The notes under the pieces are model-generated. The model was not told the origin of the DNA. It ran no database searches and saw only the letters and a list, made by a program, of their open reading frames with translations. DNA of 64,000 nucleotides from Paenarthrobacter histidinolovorans (GTDB taxonomy: Bacteria; Actinomycetota; Actinomycetes; Actinomycetales; Micrococcaceae): NCBI RefSeq assembly GCF_014647595.1, contig NZ_BMPM01000001.1, positions 744,001-808,000 on the forward strand, read 5' to 3'. Below are positions 10,121-16,370 of this stretch, one piece after another (positions within the stretch are counted from its first letter, which is position 1; the number at the start of each line of letters is the position of its first letter). Made by a program: the position numbers and the translations under genes.

Positions 10121-11746
10121 TTAGCTGCGGATGGCGGCTGCCTTCCGGCGACCAAGGGCGGTCAGGACCAGGCCCATCACAAGCAATGCCCCTGCCCAGA
10201 GTGCAAAGCTGCTGTTCAGTCCCGTGGCAGCAAGGGTATTGGCACTCCCGACGGCGGTGGGGACCGCCGCGGTCACTGAACCTTTGGTGCCAGCAGTGGT
10301 GTGGACGCTGCCTGCGGTCTGGATGCTTCCGCCAGTGAGGTTTCCCGTCACGGTGCCGGCAACGGGCTCGTCAACGCCGGGTTCTCCACCGGTCGAGGGG
10401 CCTCCACTAATCGGCGTCTCGGTCGGAGGCGTGACAACCGGCGGGGTTACGACCGGAGGCGTGACAACCGGCGGGGTGACAACGGGAGGGGTTACGACCG
10501 GAGGCGTGACAACGGGAGGGGTTACGACCGGAGGCGTTACTACCGGCGGGGTCACGGTACCGACGGAACCGCCACCGATGCCCACTGAGGTTGACCCAAC
10601 GGTTACCGGAGCCGTGATCGGGATGATCAGCTGCGTACCGGACAGGAGTCCGTCATCGCCGGAAGTGCTGGCACCAGGCGTGGTGCCCGTGCCGGTGGTG
10701 CCCGTCGAACCATTGGAACCAGTAGTAGCCGAGGAATCACCCAGCACACCAGCCGACGTGGAGCCAACGGTTGCCGGAGCCGTAATCGGAGCAACGATCT
10801 GCGTCCCGGAACCGATACCTTCGGAACCGGAAGTGCTGGCTCCGGGCGTGGTGCCCGTGCCGGTCGTGCCACCCGTGGAACCATTGGTCCCGCCAGTGGT
10901 GGCTGCCGAGTCACCCAACAGCCCAGCCGAGGTAGCGCCCAGGTTGATAGGGGCAGTAATCGGAGCGACAACCTGCGTTCCCGAACCAATGCCCTCAGAC
11001 CCGGACGTCGAAGCACCTGAGGCAGCAGGAGCAGCAGCCGAACCTCCGCCAGTGGACGTAGCTGCGGAATCACCGGCCACCCCCACGGCAGTGGCTCCGA
11101 TGTTAACAGGGACCGAAATCGGAGCCACTACCTGAGCGCCGGACGCGATACCCTCTCCCCCCGACGTTGTTGCCTGCGCAGGCGCTTGGGCCGGTGCAGG
11201 AGCTGTTGATCCTGAGGTTGCTGCCGAGTCACCGAGGACGCCGACCGACGTCGACCCCACCGTGATGGGGATCGCCACCGGCGCCACAACCTGGGTTCCC
11301 GAAGCGACGCCGTCGGCGCCGCCGGTGGTGGTTGCCGGCGTCGAACTTGTTGCCCCGGCAGGGGCGGCAGGTGTGGCTGAGCTCGCCGCAGTGGAGCCCC
11401 CCAGCAGACCCACTGACGACGAGCCCAGGTTTACGGGCACCGTTACCGGAGCTACGACTTGCGTCCCGGATCCGATGCCGTTGGAACCGTTGGTGGTGGC
11501 TGCGGGTGCTGAACCCGAGCTGGCAGCAGGTGTGGCTGAACTGGTTGCCGCCGAGTCCCCCACCAGGCCCAGAGAGGTTGCGCCGAGGTTGATGGGCGCT
11601 GCTACTGGCGCCACCACCTGCGTGCCGGACAGAAGTCCGTCCTTGCCGCTGGTGGTGTCCGCGGCGTTTGCCGCGGTGGCGCTGAGGACAATCATGCCCC
11701 CGGCAAAGCAGGTGCCGATCAGGCACTTGCGAATGGTCGTGTTCAT
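10121..11746 (-). CDS. Wall-anchored protein with seven cysteine-free chaplin-like repeats
   Basis: The protein has 541 residues. A Sec signal ends near LSATAANA. Seven repeats of 30-35 residues follow, with the pattern SGTQVVAPVxxPxNLGxTSxGLLGDSAAT. They are joined by Ala/Ser/Thr/Gly-rich linkers. The pattern resembles the chaplin domain (SGN..Q.PV..PVN.CGN..) but lacks both cysteines. Next comes a stalk of eight TPPVV units and then a sorting signal: LAATG, a hydrophobic helix and RRK. LAXTG is the established target of class E sortases. A good AGGAG precedes the ATG. Covalent wall attachment and a role in surface hydrophobicity or adhesion are inferred. Confidence 0.85.
   Translation of the reverse strand: MNTTIRKCLIGTCFAGGMIVLSATAANAADTTSGKDGLLSGTQVVAPVAAPINLGATSLGLVGDSAATSSATPAASSGSAPAATTNGSNGIGSGTQVVAPVTVPVNLGSSSVGLLGGSTAASSATPAAPAGATSSTPATTTGGADGVASGTQVVAPVAIPITVGSTSVGVLGDSAATSGSTAPAPAQAPAQATTSGGEGIASGAQVVAPISVPVNIGATAVGVAGDSAATSTGGGSAAAPAASGASTSGSEGIGSGTQVVAPITAPINLGATSAGLLGDSAATTGGTNGSTGGTTGTGTTPGASTSGSEGIGSGTQIVAPITAPATVGSTSAGVLGDSSATTGSNGSTGTTGTGTTPGASTSGDDGLLSGTQLIIPITAPVTVGSTSVGIGGGSVGTVTPPVVTPPVVTPPVVTPPVVTPPVVTPPVVTPPVVTPPVVTPPTETPISGGPSTGGEPGVDEPVAGTVTGNLTGGSIQTAGSVHTTAGTKGSVTAAVPTAVGSANTLAATGLNSSFALWAGALLVMGLVLTALGRRKAAAIRS
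10425..10554. repeat. 15-bp coding tandem repeat (TPPVV stalk)
   Basis: About eight to nine 15-bp units of the type GGAGGCGTGACAACC run head to tail on the plus strand. On the reverse strand they encode TPPVV in frame. Units differ mainly at third codon positions, which shows selection on the protein. Copy number may vary between strains. Confidence 0.9.
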
Positions 11747-11844
11747 GGTGTTTTTCTCCTGAAGGTCTTGTTCCCGGAGACGTCCGATGACGGATCGCCT
11801 GTAGTGCCGTCTGCCGCGAAAGTCGGTGCAGCAAGGCTGGGGAC

Positions 11845-12909
11845 CTAGTCAGGAGAGGAGCCGGGATCGAATGAAACCGGCTTGGGATGTTGTTCGTCGC
11901 TGGCCGTTGTGAGGCCAGGAAGTGCGTCGGCAGGGATAATCAGGGCGGCGGAGAGGAACGCTGCCGCCGGGTTTGGCGGAGCGTTCGAGGACCCGGCGGA
12001 ACCACTGCCGGCCAGGCCTGATGGGACCGCGTCGCGATCACCGGGCAGCCCGGTAGGTGTTGCGGGATCGGCGGGTGAGGAGGACCCGCCGAGCACTGCA
12101 GTGATGCCGGTGGGGCCGAAGTTGCGGGTGGACATCACCCACGGTGAGGCCTCGAACTCGAGCCCAACGGCAGTTGATGGTGCGGAAAGATTCGGTTGTG
12201 CAGCCGGGGCACTGGTGGCCGGTTCAGGTGGACTTACGACGCCGGTCGCGGGCTGGGTGCCAGCGTCCGGCGCTGCGGGCGCTACTGCCCCGTCGGTGCC
12301 GGGTGCGGCTGGTACATCGATGTCAGGAACGGCTACCGGCGGCACGACCACGGGTGGAATGGTCACCGGAGGAACCACAGAATCAAGGGGTGGCAGAACA
12401 GTATCAACCACGCCCACGACTGGCTCCACCACCGGGTTGACCGCATCCGTCACGGGTTCCAGGCGCACAGGTTCAAGAACTGAGTTAACCGGCGGGACAA
12501 CAACGTCCACCGTGCGGTCCACGGCATCCGTAGCCGGAACCAGCGCTGTGTTGACGACTGTTCCCGCTGTGTCCGCGGGAAGGATCTGGTTGACCACCGG
12601 CACTGCGCCGACCACCTGATCCGCTGCCCCGCCAGAGTGCTGCATCGCAGGCGTGACGGCAGGAAGGGGGACGGTGAGCTGATCGGCCGGCAGCAATCCT
12701 TTGACGGCGGCCGGCAGTGCTACGTCGGGAAGCGGAACGCTGATGGTGCTGGAGGAGGTGGTGCTCTCCAAGAGGTTCTTTTCGGTATGGCTCGCGTCCG
12801 CGTTAGCGGCGGTGGCTGAGAGCGCCATCCAAATTGCGGTACCTGCTCCCGCGACCATGACAGAGCGGAGAATGCTGGCAGCACGCGGGAAAACGCGTGA
12901 ACCCCTCAT
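11845..12909 (-). CDS. Secreted Pro/Val-rich protein, function unknown
   Basis: This is a protein of about 354 residues with a signal peptide (basic MRGSRVFPRAAS, hydrophobic core, cleavage after LSATAANA). Its signal closely resembles that of the neighbouring repeat protein at 10121-11746. The mature part has a conserved-looking start (ISVPLPDVALPAAVKGLLP) and then low-complexity Val/Pro segments (VPPVTIPPVVVPPVAVPDID). Ala/Pro/Thr-rich stretches follow. No LPXTG/LAXTG signal or catalytic motif is seen. The ATG at 12909 has GGGGGTG upstream and gives a standard signal; an ATG at 12951 would add 14 residues. Function is unknown; a wall or matrix role is inferred from its neighbour. Confidence 0.75.
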   Translation of the reverse strand: MRGSRVFPRAASILRSVMVAGAGTAIWMALSATAANADASHTEKNLLESTTSSSTISVPLPDVALPAAVKGLLPADQLTVPLPAVTPAMQHSGGAADQVVGAVPVVNQILPADTAGTVVNTALVPATDAVDRTVDVVVPPVNSVLEPVRLEPVTDAVNPVVEPVVGVVDTVLPPLDSVVPPVTIPPVVVPPVAVPDIDVPAAPGTDGAVAPAAPDAGTQPATGVVSPPEPATSAPAAQPNLSAPSTAVGLEFEASPWVMSTRNFGPTGITAVLGGSSSPADPATPTGLPGDRDAVPSGLAGSGSAGSSNAPPNPAAAFLSAALIIPADALPGLTTASDEQHPKPVSFDPGSSPD

Positions 12910-12959
12910 CTCGACACCCCCAGGTAGTCGCGAACCAATGGTCGCCTTCATCCTAGGAA

Positions 12960-12977
12960 GGACTATTGGAATAGTCC
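12960..12977. promoter_or_regulatory. Inverted repeat upstream of the secreted-protein gene
   Basis: GGACTATTGGAATAGTCC is an 8-bp perfect dyad with a 2-bp spacer. It lies about 50 bp upstream of the ATG at 12909 and is followed by a third ATAGTC. This is operator-like, but no cognate regulator is identified. Confidence 0.45.
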
Positions 12978-13021
12978 ATAGTCAGGAGTAAAGAAGATGA
13001 GAAATTTATAAGGAACCTTGT

Positions 13022-13912
13022 TTATGACGGGTAGGAGCCTGTGGCCCCTGGGCCGAAGTCCGGTGTGCCCAGTGAGGTGCGTCCTTGGGCGTTGGTTTCC
13101 TGCAGCCGCTTGATGAACCACCGGGATTGTTCCGGGCCGTAGGGCAACACGGGGATGGCCTTGGTGGCGTCGGACGGCATGTCGCGGATGGACTGGGTTG
13201 CCTGGCGAACGGCGGTGCCCATGGTGTCCGCCATGGTCTTGACGAATTCGTCGCTCACATGTTTTCCGTGGCCGGGGACCAGGAATTCGTAACGGTGCCT
13301 GAGCGCCGAGATGTGCCGCAGCGCATCCGCCCACTCTTCAGGATAGGAATCCTCGAACGACGGGTGAGCGCCCTGCTCCACGAGGTCCCCCACGTACAGG
13401 GTGGAGCTGGTGCCTACCAGCAGGTCGCCGTCCGTGTGGGCACGGCCCAGGTAGAACAGGGTGGCGGTGATTCCGCCGAGGTCCACCAGCACAGGCTGGT
13501 CGCGGACCAGCGCGTTCGGGACAACAATCTCGACGGCGTCGCCCTCCCCCGCTGCCATCTCGGGTTCGTTGGTGGCCACGAAGCGCCGCTGGTTGTCGGC
13601 GTCGCGTTCGATGGTGGCCGCACAGTTGGCGTGCGCCCAAAACTCGGTAACGCCGTCGTCAGCGAAAACGGCGTTACCGAAGAAGTGGTCGTAGTGCGCA
13701 TGGGTGTTCACCACCACCAGCGGCAGCTGGGTCTTTTCGCGAACCGCGGCAAGGATCTCCCGGCCTTGGCGCGGGCCACAGCCGGTGTCGATGACCATGG
13801 CGAGCTCAGAGCCCACCACCAGCCCGGTGTTGAGTAACGATCCCTCGGTTTCCAAGACGTAGTTGTCCGGTCCAAGTTCCAGCCAAGCTGACAATGCGTT
13901 CTCCGTATCCAC
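13022..13912 (-). CDS. MBL-fold metallo-hydrolase
   Basis: This 296-residue cytoplasmic protein has the metallo-beta-lactamase fold. The metal-binding motif is THAHYDH (HxHxDH), followed by a histidine in GRAHTDGDLLV and another in LVPGHGKHV, which together can bind two zinc ions. The sequence suggests the general glyoxalase II/RNase-Z superfamily rather than a true beta-lactamase, since no secretion signal is present. The substrate is unknown. It stands alone between two secreted-protein genes. Confidence 0.88.
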   Translation of the reverse strand: MDTENALSAWLELGPDNYVLETEGSLLNTGLVVGSELAMVIDTGCGPRQGREILAAVREKTQLPLVVVNTHAHYDHFFGNAVFADDGVTEFWAHANCAATIERDADNQRRFVATNEPEMAAGEGDAVEIVVPNALVRDQPVLVDLGGITATLFYLGRAHTDGDLLVGTSSTLYVGDLVEQGAHPSFEDSYPEEWADALRHISALRHRYEFLVPGHGKHVSDEFVKTMADTMGTAVRQATQSIRDMPSDATKAIPVLPYGPEQSRWFIKRLQETNAQGRTSLGTPDFGPGATGSYPS

Positions 13913-13996: not shown

Positions 13997-14750
13997 TTAG
14001 AGAATGGCGGTCATGACGTTCCAGCCCGCGCCGATCTGTGCGGAGTACAGCCACCAGCCGGAGCCGTTGCCTGCGTAGAGCACCAGGTCTCCGCCGGTGC
14101 TGCGCCCCAGGACGTCCACCTTGCCGTCACCGTCGAAATCACCCGGCGCCTCGATGGCGTTGAAGATGTTCCAGCCCGAGCCGATTTGGCTGGTGGCAAG
14201 CCACCCGCCTGCGCCGTTCCCCGGGTACAGCAGAAGTGCACCGGATCCGTTGCGGGCAATGACGTCCGCTTTGCCGTCGCCGTTGAAGTCGCCCACGCCG
14301 TCGATGGCTGTCATGACGTTCCAGCCGGCGCCAATCTGGCGCGGCTGCAGCCAGCCGCCGGTGCCGTTGCCAGGGTAAAGCCAGAGCACACCGTTGCCGT
14401 CGCGGGCAATGATGTCAGCTGTTGCATCGCCGTTGAAGTCGCCGGATGCCTTGATGGAGGTCATCACGTTCCAGCCGGCGCCGATCTGACGGGCACCCAG
14501 CAGGCCACCCCAACCGTTGCCCGGGTAAAGCCAGAGCACGCCGTTGCCGTCGCGGGCAATGACATCTGCGTAGCCGTCGCCGTTGAAGTCGCCCGGCGCC
14601 TCGATGGAGGTCATTCCGTTCCAGCCCACACCGATCTGGGTGCGGCCGCCCTTCCAGCCTCCGTAGCCGTTGCCCCGGTAAAGCCACAGAGCACCGCTGC
14701 CGTCGCGGGCAATGACGTCGCTGGTACCGTCTCCGTTGAAGTCGGTGAGC
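13997..14750. repeat. Five ~150-bp in-frame repeats of the protease propeller
   Basis: Near-identical 150-bp units encode the propeller blades at the 3' end of the protease. The block CCGTTGAAGTCGCC recurs in four of them. The high nucleotide similarity suggests recent duplication or gene conversion between blades. Confidence 0.85.
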
Positions 14751-16213
14751 TTTTTGTTCGGTGCCGCAGCGGGAGCGGTGCCACCGAACTTCTTCAATGC
14801 CGTGGTTGCATCCACCAGGCCCGCGCCGCATCCGGCCGAGCAACCACCCGGCAGCGGCCTGGCCGATTCTTTGAGCTGCTGCTCCACCTGTGCAGGAGTG
14901 ACGGTGCTTCCCTCTGCGGACATGAGAAGTGCTGCAACGCCGGCCACGTGGGGAGCGGCCATGGACGTTCCCTCCATCCAGGCGAACGCGGGCTCGCCGG
15001 GCGTGGTGGTTCCGTAGTTCAGGGTGGACAAAATTCCACGGCTCACGTCAGTGGACATGTCGCCACCGGGTGCCGTGACGTCCACTGTGGAGCCGTAGTT
15101 GGAGTACACGGCCCGCGCTCCAGCCTTGTCGCTGGCAGCTACTGCGACGACGTTCTGGCAGTTCGCGGGGCTCGCATCAGCGGCGGGGCGGTTGGAGTTG
15201 CCTGCAGAGGCAACGACCACGGCGCCGGCGTTGTACGCAAAGTTGATGGCGTTCTGGTACGTGGTGGAGCACTCTTTGATGCCGCCGAGGCTGAGGTTGA
15301 TGACCTTTGCCGGGTTGGGGTTGACAGGAGCATCAGCCACCACGCCACCGGCGGCCCAGATGATGGAATCGGCAATATCGGAGCTGTAGCCGCCGCAGAC
15401 GCCGAGCGCCCTGACGGGGAGAATCTTGGCCGATGGCGCTACACCGGAGATCCCGATGCTGTTGTTGCCGAGGGCTGCCACGATTCCGGCAACGTGGGTT
15501 CCGTGCCATGAAGAGTTCTCAGCGGGGCTGCCGGACTCACACTCTTCTGCGGGCACCCAATCGCCTTGGTCGGCAGGGTTGGGGTCGCGGCCATCACCAT
15601 CGCGCGCATCGGCGGCGCTGGAGATCATGTCGTAGCCGGGCAGCACGTTGGCGTTGAGCTCGGGGTGGCTGGTGATGCCTGTATCCACCACCGCAACTAC
15701 TACGCCTTCGCCGTGGTTGTAGTCCCAGGCTCCGGGGGTGCGGATGCCTGAGAAGTTGTCCCACAGATTCCATTGCTCCAGGTAGCCATAATCCTGGGAG
15801 TGCGAGGTGGGGCGCATGATGTCGTCAGCCTCTGCGTAGGCCACATTGGGATCCGCGCGCAGGGTTTCCACGAATGCTTGGGCTTCCGAGGCCGAAAGTG
15901 CTTCATCGAGCTTGATGACGTGGCCACCGGTTGCGTTCTCGCGGGAGCTTTTAGCCTGCACACCAAGCTTGGCGGCTGCATGGTCTGCTGCGTTCCCGGC
16001 TTTCACTGCGGCCGCTTGGGCGGCGCTGTCCCGAATACCCACGATGAACTGGTCAGTCGAGGTGTCAGTGGCAGGCTTGAGGACCTTCGGAGTGCTCGGG
16101 ATGATGTCTATCTGACCGGCGACGGCCGGCTGGACGGCCAACCCTCCGCTGATCAAGAGTGTGGCCATGGCCAAACCGATGGTTCTTGCAGGGCGGAGTC
16201 GGGGTCTATTCAC
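13997..16213 (-). CDS. Secreted subtilisin-like (S8) protease with FG-GAP/VCBS repeats
   Basis: The protein has 738 residues from a GTG start that leaves a typical signal peptide (basic start, cleavage near PAVAG). An I9-type propeptide (about 50-130) precedes the S8 domain. The catalytic triad is visible: Asp177 in VVDTGI, His237 in SSWHGTHVAG and Ser417 in GTSMAAPHVAG. The oxyanion Asn is Asn339 in SAGNSN. The C-terminal third holds five repeats of about 50 residues, each starting DFNGDG.xDVIARDG. These are calcium-binding loops of an FG-GAP/VCBS beta-propeller. The same repeat type makes up the protein at 55143. A longer start at 16264 is possible but would put 17 extra residues before the signal. 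Confidence 0.92.
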   Translation of the reverse strand: MNRPRLRPARTIGLAMATLLISGGLAVQPAVAGQIDIIPSTPKVLKPATDTSTDQFIVGIRDSAAQAAAVKAGNAADHAAAKLGVQAKSSRENATGGHVIKLDEALSASEAQAFVETLRADPNVAYAEADDIMRPTSHSQDYGYLEQWNLWDNFSGIRTPGAWDYNHGEGVVVAVVDTGITSHPELNANVLPGYDMISSAADARDGDGRDPNPADQGDWVPAEECESGSPAENSSWHGTHVAGIVAALGNNSIGISGVAPSAKILPVRALGVCGGYSSDIADSIIWAAGGVVADAPVNPNPAKVINLSLGGIKECSTTYQNAINFAYNAGAVVVASAGNSNRPAADASPANCQNVVAVAASDKAGARAVYSNYGSTVDVTAPGGDMSTDVSRGILSTLNYGTTTPGEPAFAWMEGTSMAAPHVAGVAALLMSAEGSTVTPAQVEQQLKESARPLPGGCSAGCGAGLVDATTALKKFGGTAPAAAPNKKLTDFNGDGTSDVIARDGSGALWLYRGNGYGGWKGGRTQIGVGWNGMTSIEAPGDFNGDGYADVIARDGNGVLWLYPGNGWGGLLGARQIGAGWNVMTSIKASGDFNGDATADIIARDGNGVLWLYPGNGTGGWLQPRQIGAGWNVMTAIDGVGDFNGDGKADVIARNGSGALLLYPGNGAGGWLATSQIGSGWNIFNAIEAPGDFDGDGKVDVLGRSTGGDLVLYAGNGSGWWLYSAQIGAGWNVMTAIL

Positions 16214-16370
16214 TGGGCATCCTAGGGAAAATCGCGGCAGCTCTGAGCGGCTGACCGCGGGCAACTGGAGACCACCAGCTGACCCCCAGGAAATTGTAAG
16301 CTGACTATCGGCTGCAAAAGCTACACAACGCCGATTATGACAGGGTCAGGAATCCTCGTTGCTGAACGAC

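Follow-up and report, generated by a model that had tools for sequence, protein, structure and literature searches.

What does a bacterium whose relatives form no spores do with a chaplin? Chaplins are the water-repellent coat proteins of spore-forming Streptomyces. The question is raised by an open reading frame on the minus strand (10121-11746; 541 amino acids, ATG start) of the window, the 64,000-nucleotide stretch of Paenarthrobacter histidinolovorans DNA analysed here; the genes, repeats and RNA elements given with coordinates below lie on the same strand. We think it probable that this chaplin gene stands second in a conserved unit of two genes, with a product predicted to be anchored to the wall and a Shine-Dalgarno sequence that would pair with the end of the upstream partner gene, so that the chaplin is likely translated only when the partner is. 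Neither the conserved partner nor the RNA junction between the two genes figured in the sequence-only reading that preceded this analysis.

A predicted wall protein of the chaplin family

The protein opens with a predicted signal peptide (residues 1-28, ending SATAANA, cleavage site judged by eye; 11663-11746), continues with seven chaplin repeats between residues 40 and 399, and runs through a stalk of eight TPPVV units (residues 399-438; 10433-10552, DNA array 10424-10546) into a predicted class E sorting signal (10124-10234). In this signal, LAATG (residues 505-509; 10220-10234) is followed by a hydrophobic helix and a basic RRK tail at residue 533, the C-terminal order of long chaplins. 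The sequence-only reading had described this layout of cysteine-free repeats, stalk and signal, and had proposed a search with the chaplin model; the layout held, and so did the family assignment. Pfam ChpA-C (PF03777) matches the whole protein at 59.4 bits (cut-off 21, E 3.1e-16) in seven stretches, and all seven repeats match when cut out as 43 residues each and scored singly. Starting at residues 40, 93, 149, 202, 255, 313 and 369, they score 17.4 (11537-11629), 22.9 (11378-11470), 18.9 (11210-11302), 16.4 (11051-11143), 18.7 (10892-10984), 13.5 (10718-10810) and 12.9 bits (10550-10642), respectively; only the second exceeds the cut-off, with the rest between 12.9 and 18.9 bits.

The only cysteines of the protein are residues 8 and 13, both within the predicted signal peptide, and from residue 29 to 505 the mature part lacks C, F, W, Y, M and R altogether. 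None of the repeats has the two cysteines by which a chaplin domain is recognised, a rule with exceptions in ChpE (PMC5618241) and the second domain of ChpB (PMC13251363), going by the accessible text of these papers. The accessible text of the latter also assigns three GN motifs to each chaplin domain; the sole GN here is residue 468, outside the repeats. Two domains are the mark of a long chaplin, and seven are present here. A search of solved structures gave no match at E≤1, and no family for the protein was found in NCBIfam or PHROGs. AlphaFold modelled the protein with low confidence (pLDDT 55.5), and the best fold-search match of this model (E 0.53) was rejected. The repeats had also been called possibly amyloid; in an AGGRESCAN-type score, aggregation hot spots cover 14.9 residues per repeat, against 15.3 in shuffled repeats. 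Amyloid formation is possible for such repeats, and this score lends it no support.

But is there an enzyme to read the sorting signal? The genome (4.65 Mb in 23 contigs) yielded a single sortase place, and its product falls into class E (NCBIfam NF033747, 251 bits, cut-off 160), as the sequence-only reading had anticipated in calling for a survey of this kind. Aligned to SrtE1 (5cuw), it keeps the tyrosine of GHY, which in SrtE1 lies 22 residues before the histidine of AGHR. This spacing fits Tyr229 and His251 of PMC5148588, whose accessible text links the loop tyrosine (P3 site) of class E sortase to LAXTG recognition. Together with the LAATG signal, a class E sortase with this tyrosine leads us to predict that the chaplin protein is anchored to the wall. 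When a Streptomyces-like long chaplin (L135) was used as a query, this genome gave seven matches at E≤1, of which five fall at the locus and the other two are weak and involve the query's stalk. Two Streptomyces-like control genomes gave 11 and 7; at the sensitivity of this query, no second or short chaplin was found.

Relatives of the repeat protein

Homologues are numerous, with 201 at E≤0.001 among 7994 scored candidates. The 120 of these that were listed, on which the classes were counted, divide into 79 without body cysteine and with an LAxTG end, 25 with at least six cysteines and without LxxTG, mostly named Nonomuraea, Microbispora and similar, and 16 intermediates. Of 216 encoding stretches in named genomes, 80 were kept, which with the window make a set of 81 loci. 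A closed frame is present in 76 of the 80; of these, 75 lack any cysteine between the first repeat and the tail, and LAxTG is present in 71. The best two loci belong to Paenarthrobacter nicotinovorans and P. nitroguajacolicus (73% and 83%, best segment). The long chaplin L135, by comparison, bears cysteines in both of its two domains and has a PPVV stalk along with LAHTG. Taken together, the class counts and the architecture of L135 indicate that the window protein looks like a derivative of long chaplins with more repeats, from which the cysteine pair and the GN motifs have gone.

The claim of a new surface-protein architecture was therefore too strong, since a PPVV stalk with an LAxTG tail already occurs in L135. 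Many relatives are already annotated as chaplin family, DUF320 or cell wall anchor, and the non-sporulating Arthrobacter chlorophenolicus has been credited with a chaplin-like gene in a 2013 review (PMC4255298) whose accessible text also raises the idea that attachment might predate the role of chaplins in aerial growth.

A conserved partner gene upstream

Directly upstream of the chaplin gene, at a distance of 98 nt in the window, lies a gene (11845-12951) for a Pro/Val-rich protein of 368 amino acids with an N-terminal hydrophobic segment and the end FDPGSSPD. The protein is predicted to be secreted, and its start is perhaps at 12909, as in relatives. Across the 81 loci, a same-strand frame of at least 150 codons ending in PD and stop is found 80-136 nt before the chaplin start in 79, a count in which the chaplin starts of L043 and L065 are uncertain. 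Of the remaining two, L017 has the partner too and L034 has no DNA there, which leaves the partner in 80 of 80 testable loci. The 79 frames end in VSPD (48), SSPD (23), ASPD (2) or one of six other tails seen once each. By tblastn, the partner is present where the other neighbours from the window were not found within the locus (for example L013, L017, L022 and L027). In Microbacterium loci the partner is too diverged for tblastn, and between the profile of the Arthrobacter-group partners and that of the Microbacteriaceae partners the match is confined to the N-terminus (57 columns, hhalign probability 98.5). Pfam, NCBIfam and PHROGs hold no family for the window partner. Pfam matched none of 29 Arthrobacter-group partners; in 27 Microbacteriaceae partners it matched Collagen_mid, Perilipin and Cornifin, each in one member, which we take as low complexity. 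An AlphaFold model of the partner (pLDDT 49.1) was discarded.

The names of the relatives and the reported Arthrobacter chaplin-like genes (PMC4255298, accessible text) would also suit an ordinary long chaplin that happens to sit beside an unrelated gene, in a neighbourhood without meaning. However, a partner that is kept in every testable locus, while other neighbours are not, makes this highly improbable. The same kind of gene extends to other chaplin types: among Nonomuraea/Microbispora-like loci with a chaplin frame, 16 of 17 are preceded by a frame that ends in SPD or APD, 10 of 30 class loci and 9 of 20 further loci having been left out because pattern matching found no chaplin frame. 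At Streptomyces-like long-chaplin loci, no PD-ending partner was found (0 of 10).

Two further features of the window may be recorded. A subtilase with FG-GAP repeats (13997-16264) is near the two-gene unit in several Paenarthrobacter-type loci as well. Between 24001 and 46000, the G+C content drops to 54-58% from the 62-67% of the first 24 kb, a fall that hints at foreign origin.

Predicted pairing of the partner's tail with the Shine-Dalgarno sequence

The RNA that joins the two genes, including the last codons of the partner and the start codon of the chaplin (11744-11874), is predicted to be structured, with a fold of -46.1 kcal/mol (z -3.04) that none of 200 shuffles equals. Fold, complementarity and duplex energy all point to a stem, P1, whose 5' arm UCUCCUGA (11849-11856) comprises the last partner codons (S-P-D together with 11848) and lies opposite the 3' arm UCAGGAGA (11755-11762), which is the Shine-Dalgarno sequence of the chaplin gene. 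The predicted structure thus spans the ribosome-binding site of the downstream gene and the coding sequence of the upstream one, one of the marks of RNA-unfolding coupling.

Codon choice in the tail is unlike that in the rest of the partner. The Pro codon is CCT in 54 and CCC in 26 of 80 loci, compared with CCG 44%, CCC 38%, CCT 11% and CCA 6% elsewhere in the same genes, and the Ser codon is TCT in 53 of 75, compared with 8% elsewhere. Complementarity between tail and Shine-Dalgarno sequence extends up to 12 bp (L047, L056, L062, L069, L080), and in some loci, such as L013, L022, L058 and L073, it contains an internal mismatch. For the controls of duplex and fold, 76 of the 81 loci were used, leaving out L017, L027, L043 and L065 with uncertain starts and L034 with missing DNA. 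The mean duplex energy of tail and Shine-Dalgarno region is -19.1; synonymous tails reach -13.3 on average, and other in-frame windows -8.4. Real tails outdo synonymous ones at p<0.05 in 50 of the 76 loci and at p<0.01 in 26, and they outdo other windows of the same gene at p<0.05 in 75. For junctions found in the genus with the covariance model R1 (see below), 78 of 80 were used, L194 and L227 being skipped because they have no PD end; p<0.05 was reached against synonymous tails in 37 and against other windows in 72, in a set that is not independent because it was chosen by R1 and some sequences recur. The chaplin and partner tails of L251 are identical to those of L013. Pairing is no better than synonymous at p<0.05 in 26 of the 76 named loci and 41 of the 78 genus junctions, and most junctions before WPDP peptides belong here. 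The folds are more uniform: at least five bases of the Shine-Dalgarno region pair with the tail in 76 of 76 junctions versus 72 of 304 control windows, the mean z is -5.2 versus -0.5, and z lies below -2 in 76 of 76 versus 21 of 152.

Could the SPD tail be kept for the protein instead, as a tag by which the partner is docked, processed or sorted, with the pairing as a by-product of a conserved tail and a Shine-Dalgarno sequence? The residues before it are certainly conserved as protein, with Gly(-5) in 78 of 78 partners through all four codons, and Pro(-6) in 77 and Asp(-7) in 75 of 78 with varied codons, and the cysteine-type loci retain their SPD or APD tails where a long stem was not found. 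Yet a tag would explain neither codons that are biased toward pairing nor a junction that folds far better than control windows from the same gene, and we consider it quite unlikely. As the sole cause of the tail, a protein-only function was set aside because of the codon choice; protein and RNA constraints may well act on it together. In the cysteine-type relatives the tail is kept and the gap is longer; a long stem was sought there and none found, and a P1-like stem was dropped for these loci. The multi-repeat chaplin loci of this type, L103-L116, retain a TCTCCTGAC-like tail with CCT codons, and their pairing covers only 6-8 bp.

Conserved hairpins and the spread of the junction

Between the arms of P1 lie two hairpins, P2 (11813-11832) and P3 (11779-11799). 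In an alignment of 76 rows, P2 shows changes on both sides at six of six pairs with 92.8% of cells paired. For P3, the paired share is 86.1%. P1 itself covaries little. In 23 Arthrobacter-group rows, 97.8% of its cells are paired and six of eight pairs are invariant; over all 76 rows (alignment A2), 74.1% are paired and none of 500 shuffles reaches its covariation score, which at 0.087 is lower than that of versions slid by one to three columns (0.114-0.133), the Shine-Dalgarno side being misaligned in some rows. When 80 genus junctions were aligned to R1, in an alignment that for this reason leans towards the model, P1, P2 and P3 were paired in 89.5%, 91.3% and 79.4% of cells, and 14 of 21 pairs had changed on both sides.

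That P2 and P3 are conserved even though a coupling stem has no need of them could mean that the junction is a regulated switch, such as an RNA thermometer, a small-RNA target or a ligand-sensing leader, or a site of processing or attenuation by which the ratio of chaplin to partner is set, rather than a passive stem. However, these hairpins keep their shape and not their sequence, unlike most ligand-binding cores. No Rfam family matches (three matches in window positions 11600-13100, each below the gathering score, and none in eight relatives), a simple scan gave no U-run terminator, and the 5' arm of P1 always falls on the last codons before the stop, just where coupling predicts it. We therefore regard such a switch as unlikely, if less so than the protein tag, and favour translational coupling.

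How far does the junction reach? R1 was built from 23 Arthrobacter-group junctions and scores 129.6 bits in the window, which is part of its training set. In 1.67 Mb it gave 46 matches at E≤1, every one at a junction, covering 25 of 25 Arthrobacter-group sources (23 of them the training set) and 21 of 55 others (four at E≤0.01). This genome has one match at E≤10. Within the genus, R1 matched 60 of 61 genomes at E≤1 (91 matches, 28 genomes with at least two), whereas the chaplin protein as a query matched 32 of the same 61; the model can thus lead to surface genes that escape searches with proteins. In an order-wide sample it found nine of 248 at E≤0.01, of which seven belong to the genus and two to the family; members of the Microbacteriaceae are expected to have been missed because the filters were strict.

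Of the 91 genus matches, 80 were examined for downstream frames, and 78 of these have an upstream PD-ending frame at the expected place. Downstream are 38 frames of at least 200 amino acids with an LxxTG tail, eight short signal-plus-anchor frames, 11 WPDP peptides, 12 short frames beginning MD and 11 others, which takes the junction beyond intact chaplins. The signal-plus-anchor frames (L179, L188, L191, L193, L198, L206, L217, L218) encode proteins of 66-125 amino acids with hardly anything beyond signal peptide and C-terminal anchor, which look as though they had lost the repeats. The WPDP peptides (L229, L230, L232-L236, L239-L241, L244) have 20-61 amino acids with (I/V)GNWPDP(M/L), sometimes repeated, and no apparent signal peptide; their frames begin directly behind an SPD-tailed partner and an R1 junction. 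Most of the short MD frames read MDxTVxxRxSGTP..ERPP (L210, L213, L215, L220-L222, L226-L228, L231, L248, L249; L227 and L228 are incomplete).

It is tempting to go further, and we do so tentatively: the junction may be a widespread, undescribed actinobacterial RNA element, near-universal in the genus, through which a surface protein is produced only alongside a secreted partner dedicated to it. This element would have been reused with LAxTG proteins of eroded chaplin core, bare signal-plus-anchor proteins and (I/V)GNWPDPM peptides, and the module of partner and lock would be older than the chaplin coat, which is one of its outputs. In the literature on chaplins, translational coupling and actinobacterial RNA motifs, where subscription journals were thinly covered, we recognised no paper on the partner or the junction.

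Translational coupling as the probable explanation

How might the junction work? We propose that partner and chaplin share one transcript, on which P1 would hide the Shine-Dalgarno sequence of the chaplin gene. A simple scan found no promoter-like or terminator-like site, which is neutral on this point. A ribosome terminating at the partner stop would sit on the 5' arm of P1, and the Shine-Dalgarno sequence some 90 nt downstream would become free; because this sequence can pair with the partner's end, the chaplin is likely made only together with the partner. Such coupling would be of the RNA-unfolding kind, a model that PMC12548453 describes and illustrates with E. coli rpmI-rplT (+52 nt). 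Termination-reinitiation, which the accessible text of PMC10666635 ties to overlaps or very short distances, does not fit the 98-nt gap of the window. With less certainty, the product could form a hydrophobic coat or adhesin, multivalent and tethered, for which short chaplins would not be required, and the partner could serve in its export, assembly or completion. Should coupling prove right, the partner becomes the first candidate for handling chaplin-type repeats in export or assembly. The fixed two-gene unit bears on why chaplins are kept at all in bacteria without aerial hyphae or spores.

Comparison with known systems

Finally, we would like to place the locus among the systems it most resembles. 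If our reading is correct, it shares with E. coli rpmI-rplT, as described in the accessible text of PMC12548453, a downstream ribosome-binding site that is structured with the upstream gene across a gap. Unlike there, the gap is 80-136 nt, two further hairpins are present, and the arrangement, predicted here from sequence, is kept in Micrococcaceae and Microbacteriaceae. CwpA and CwpB of Actinoplanes missouriensis are likewise hydrophobic substrates of class E sortase outside Streptomyces; in contrast to the window protein, they are without chaplin domains according to the accessible text of PMC13251363. With ChpA-C of Streptomyces (PF03777, LAXTG, class E sortase), the window protein has in common the signal peptide, chaplin domains, Pro-rich stalk, LAxTG and Pfam match, and it differs in having seven domains rather than two, no cysteine pair and no GN in the repeats. 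The loci of Streptomyces-like long chaplins are set apart by having no PD-ending partner upstream. Databases also contain multi-repeat chaplin family proteins from Arthrobacter, Microbacterium and Streptosporangiales: some of the listed homologues differ in the cysteine-rich, LxxTG-less form described above (25 of 120), while the family shares with the window protein its type of repeat and, where tested, the kind of gene upstream.
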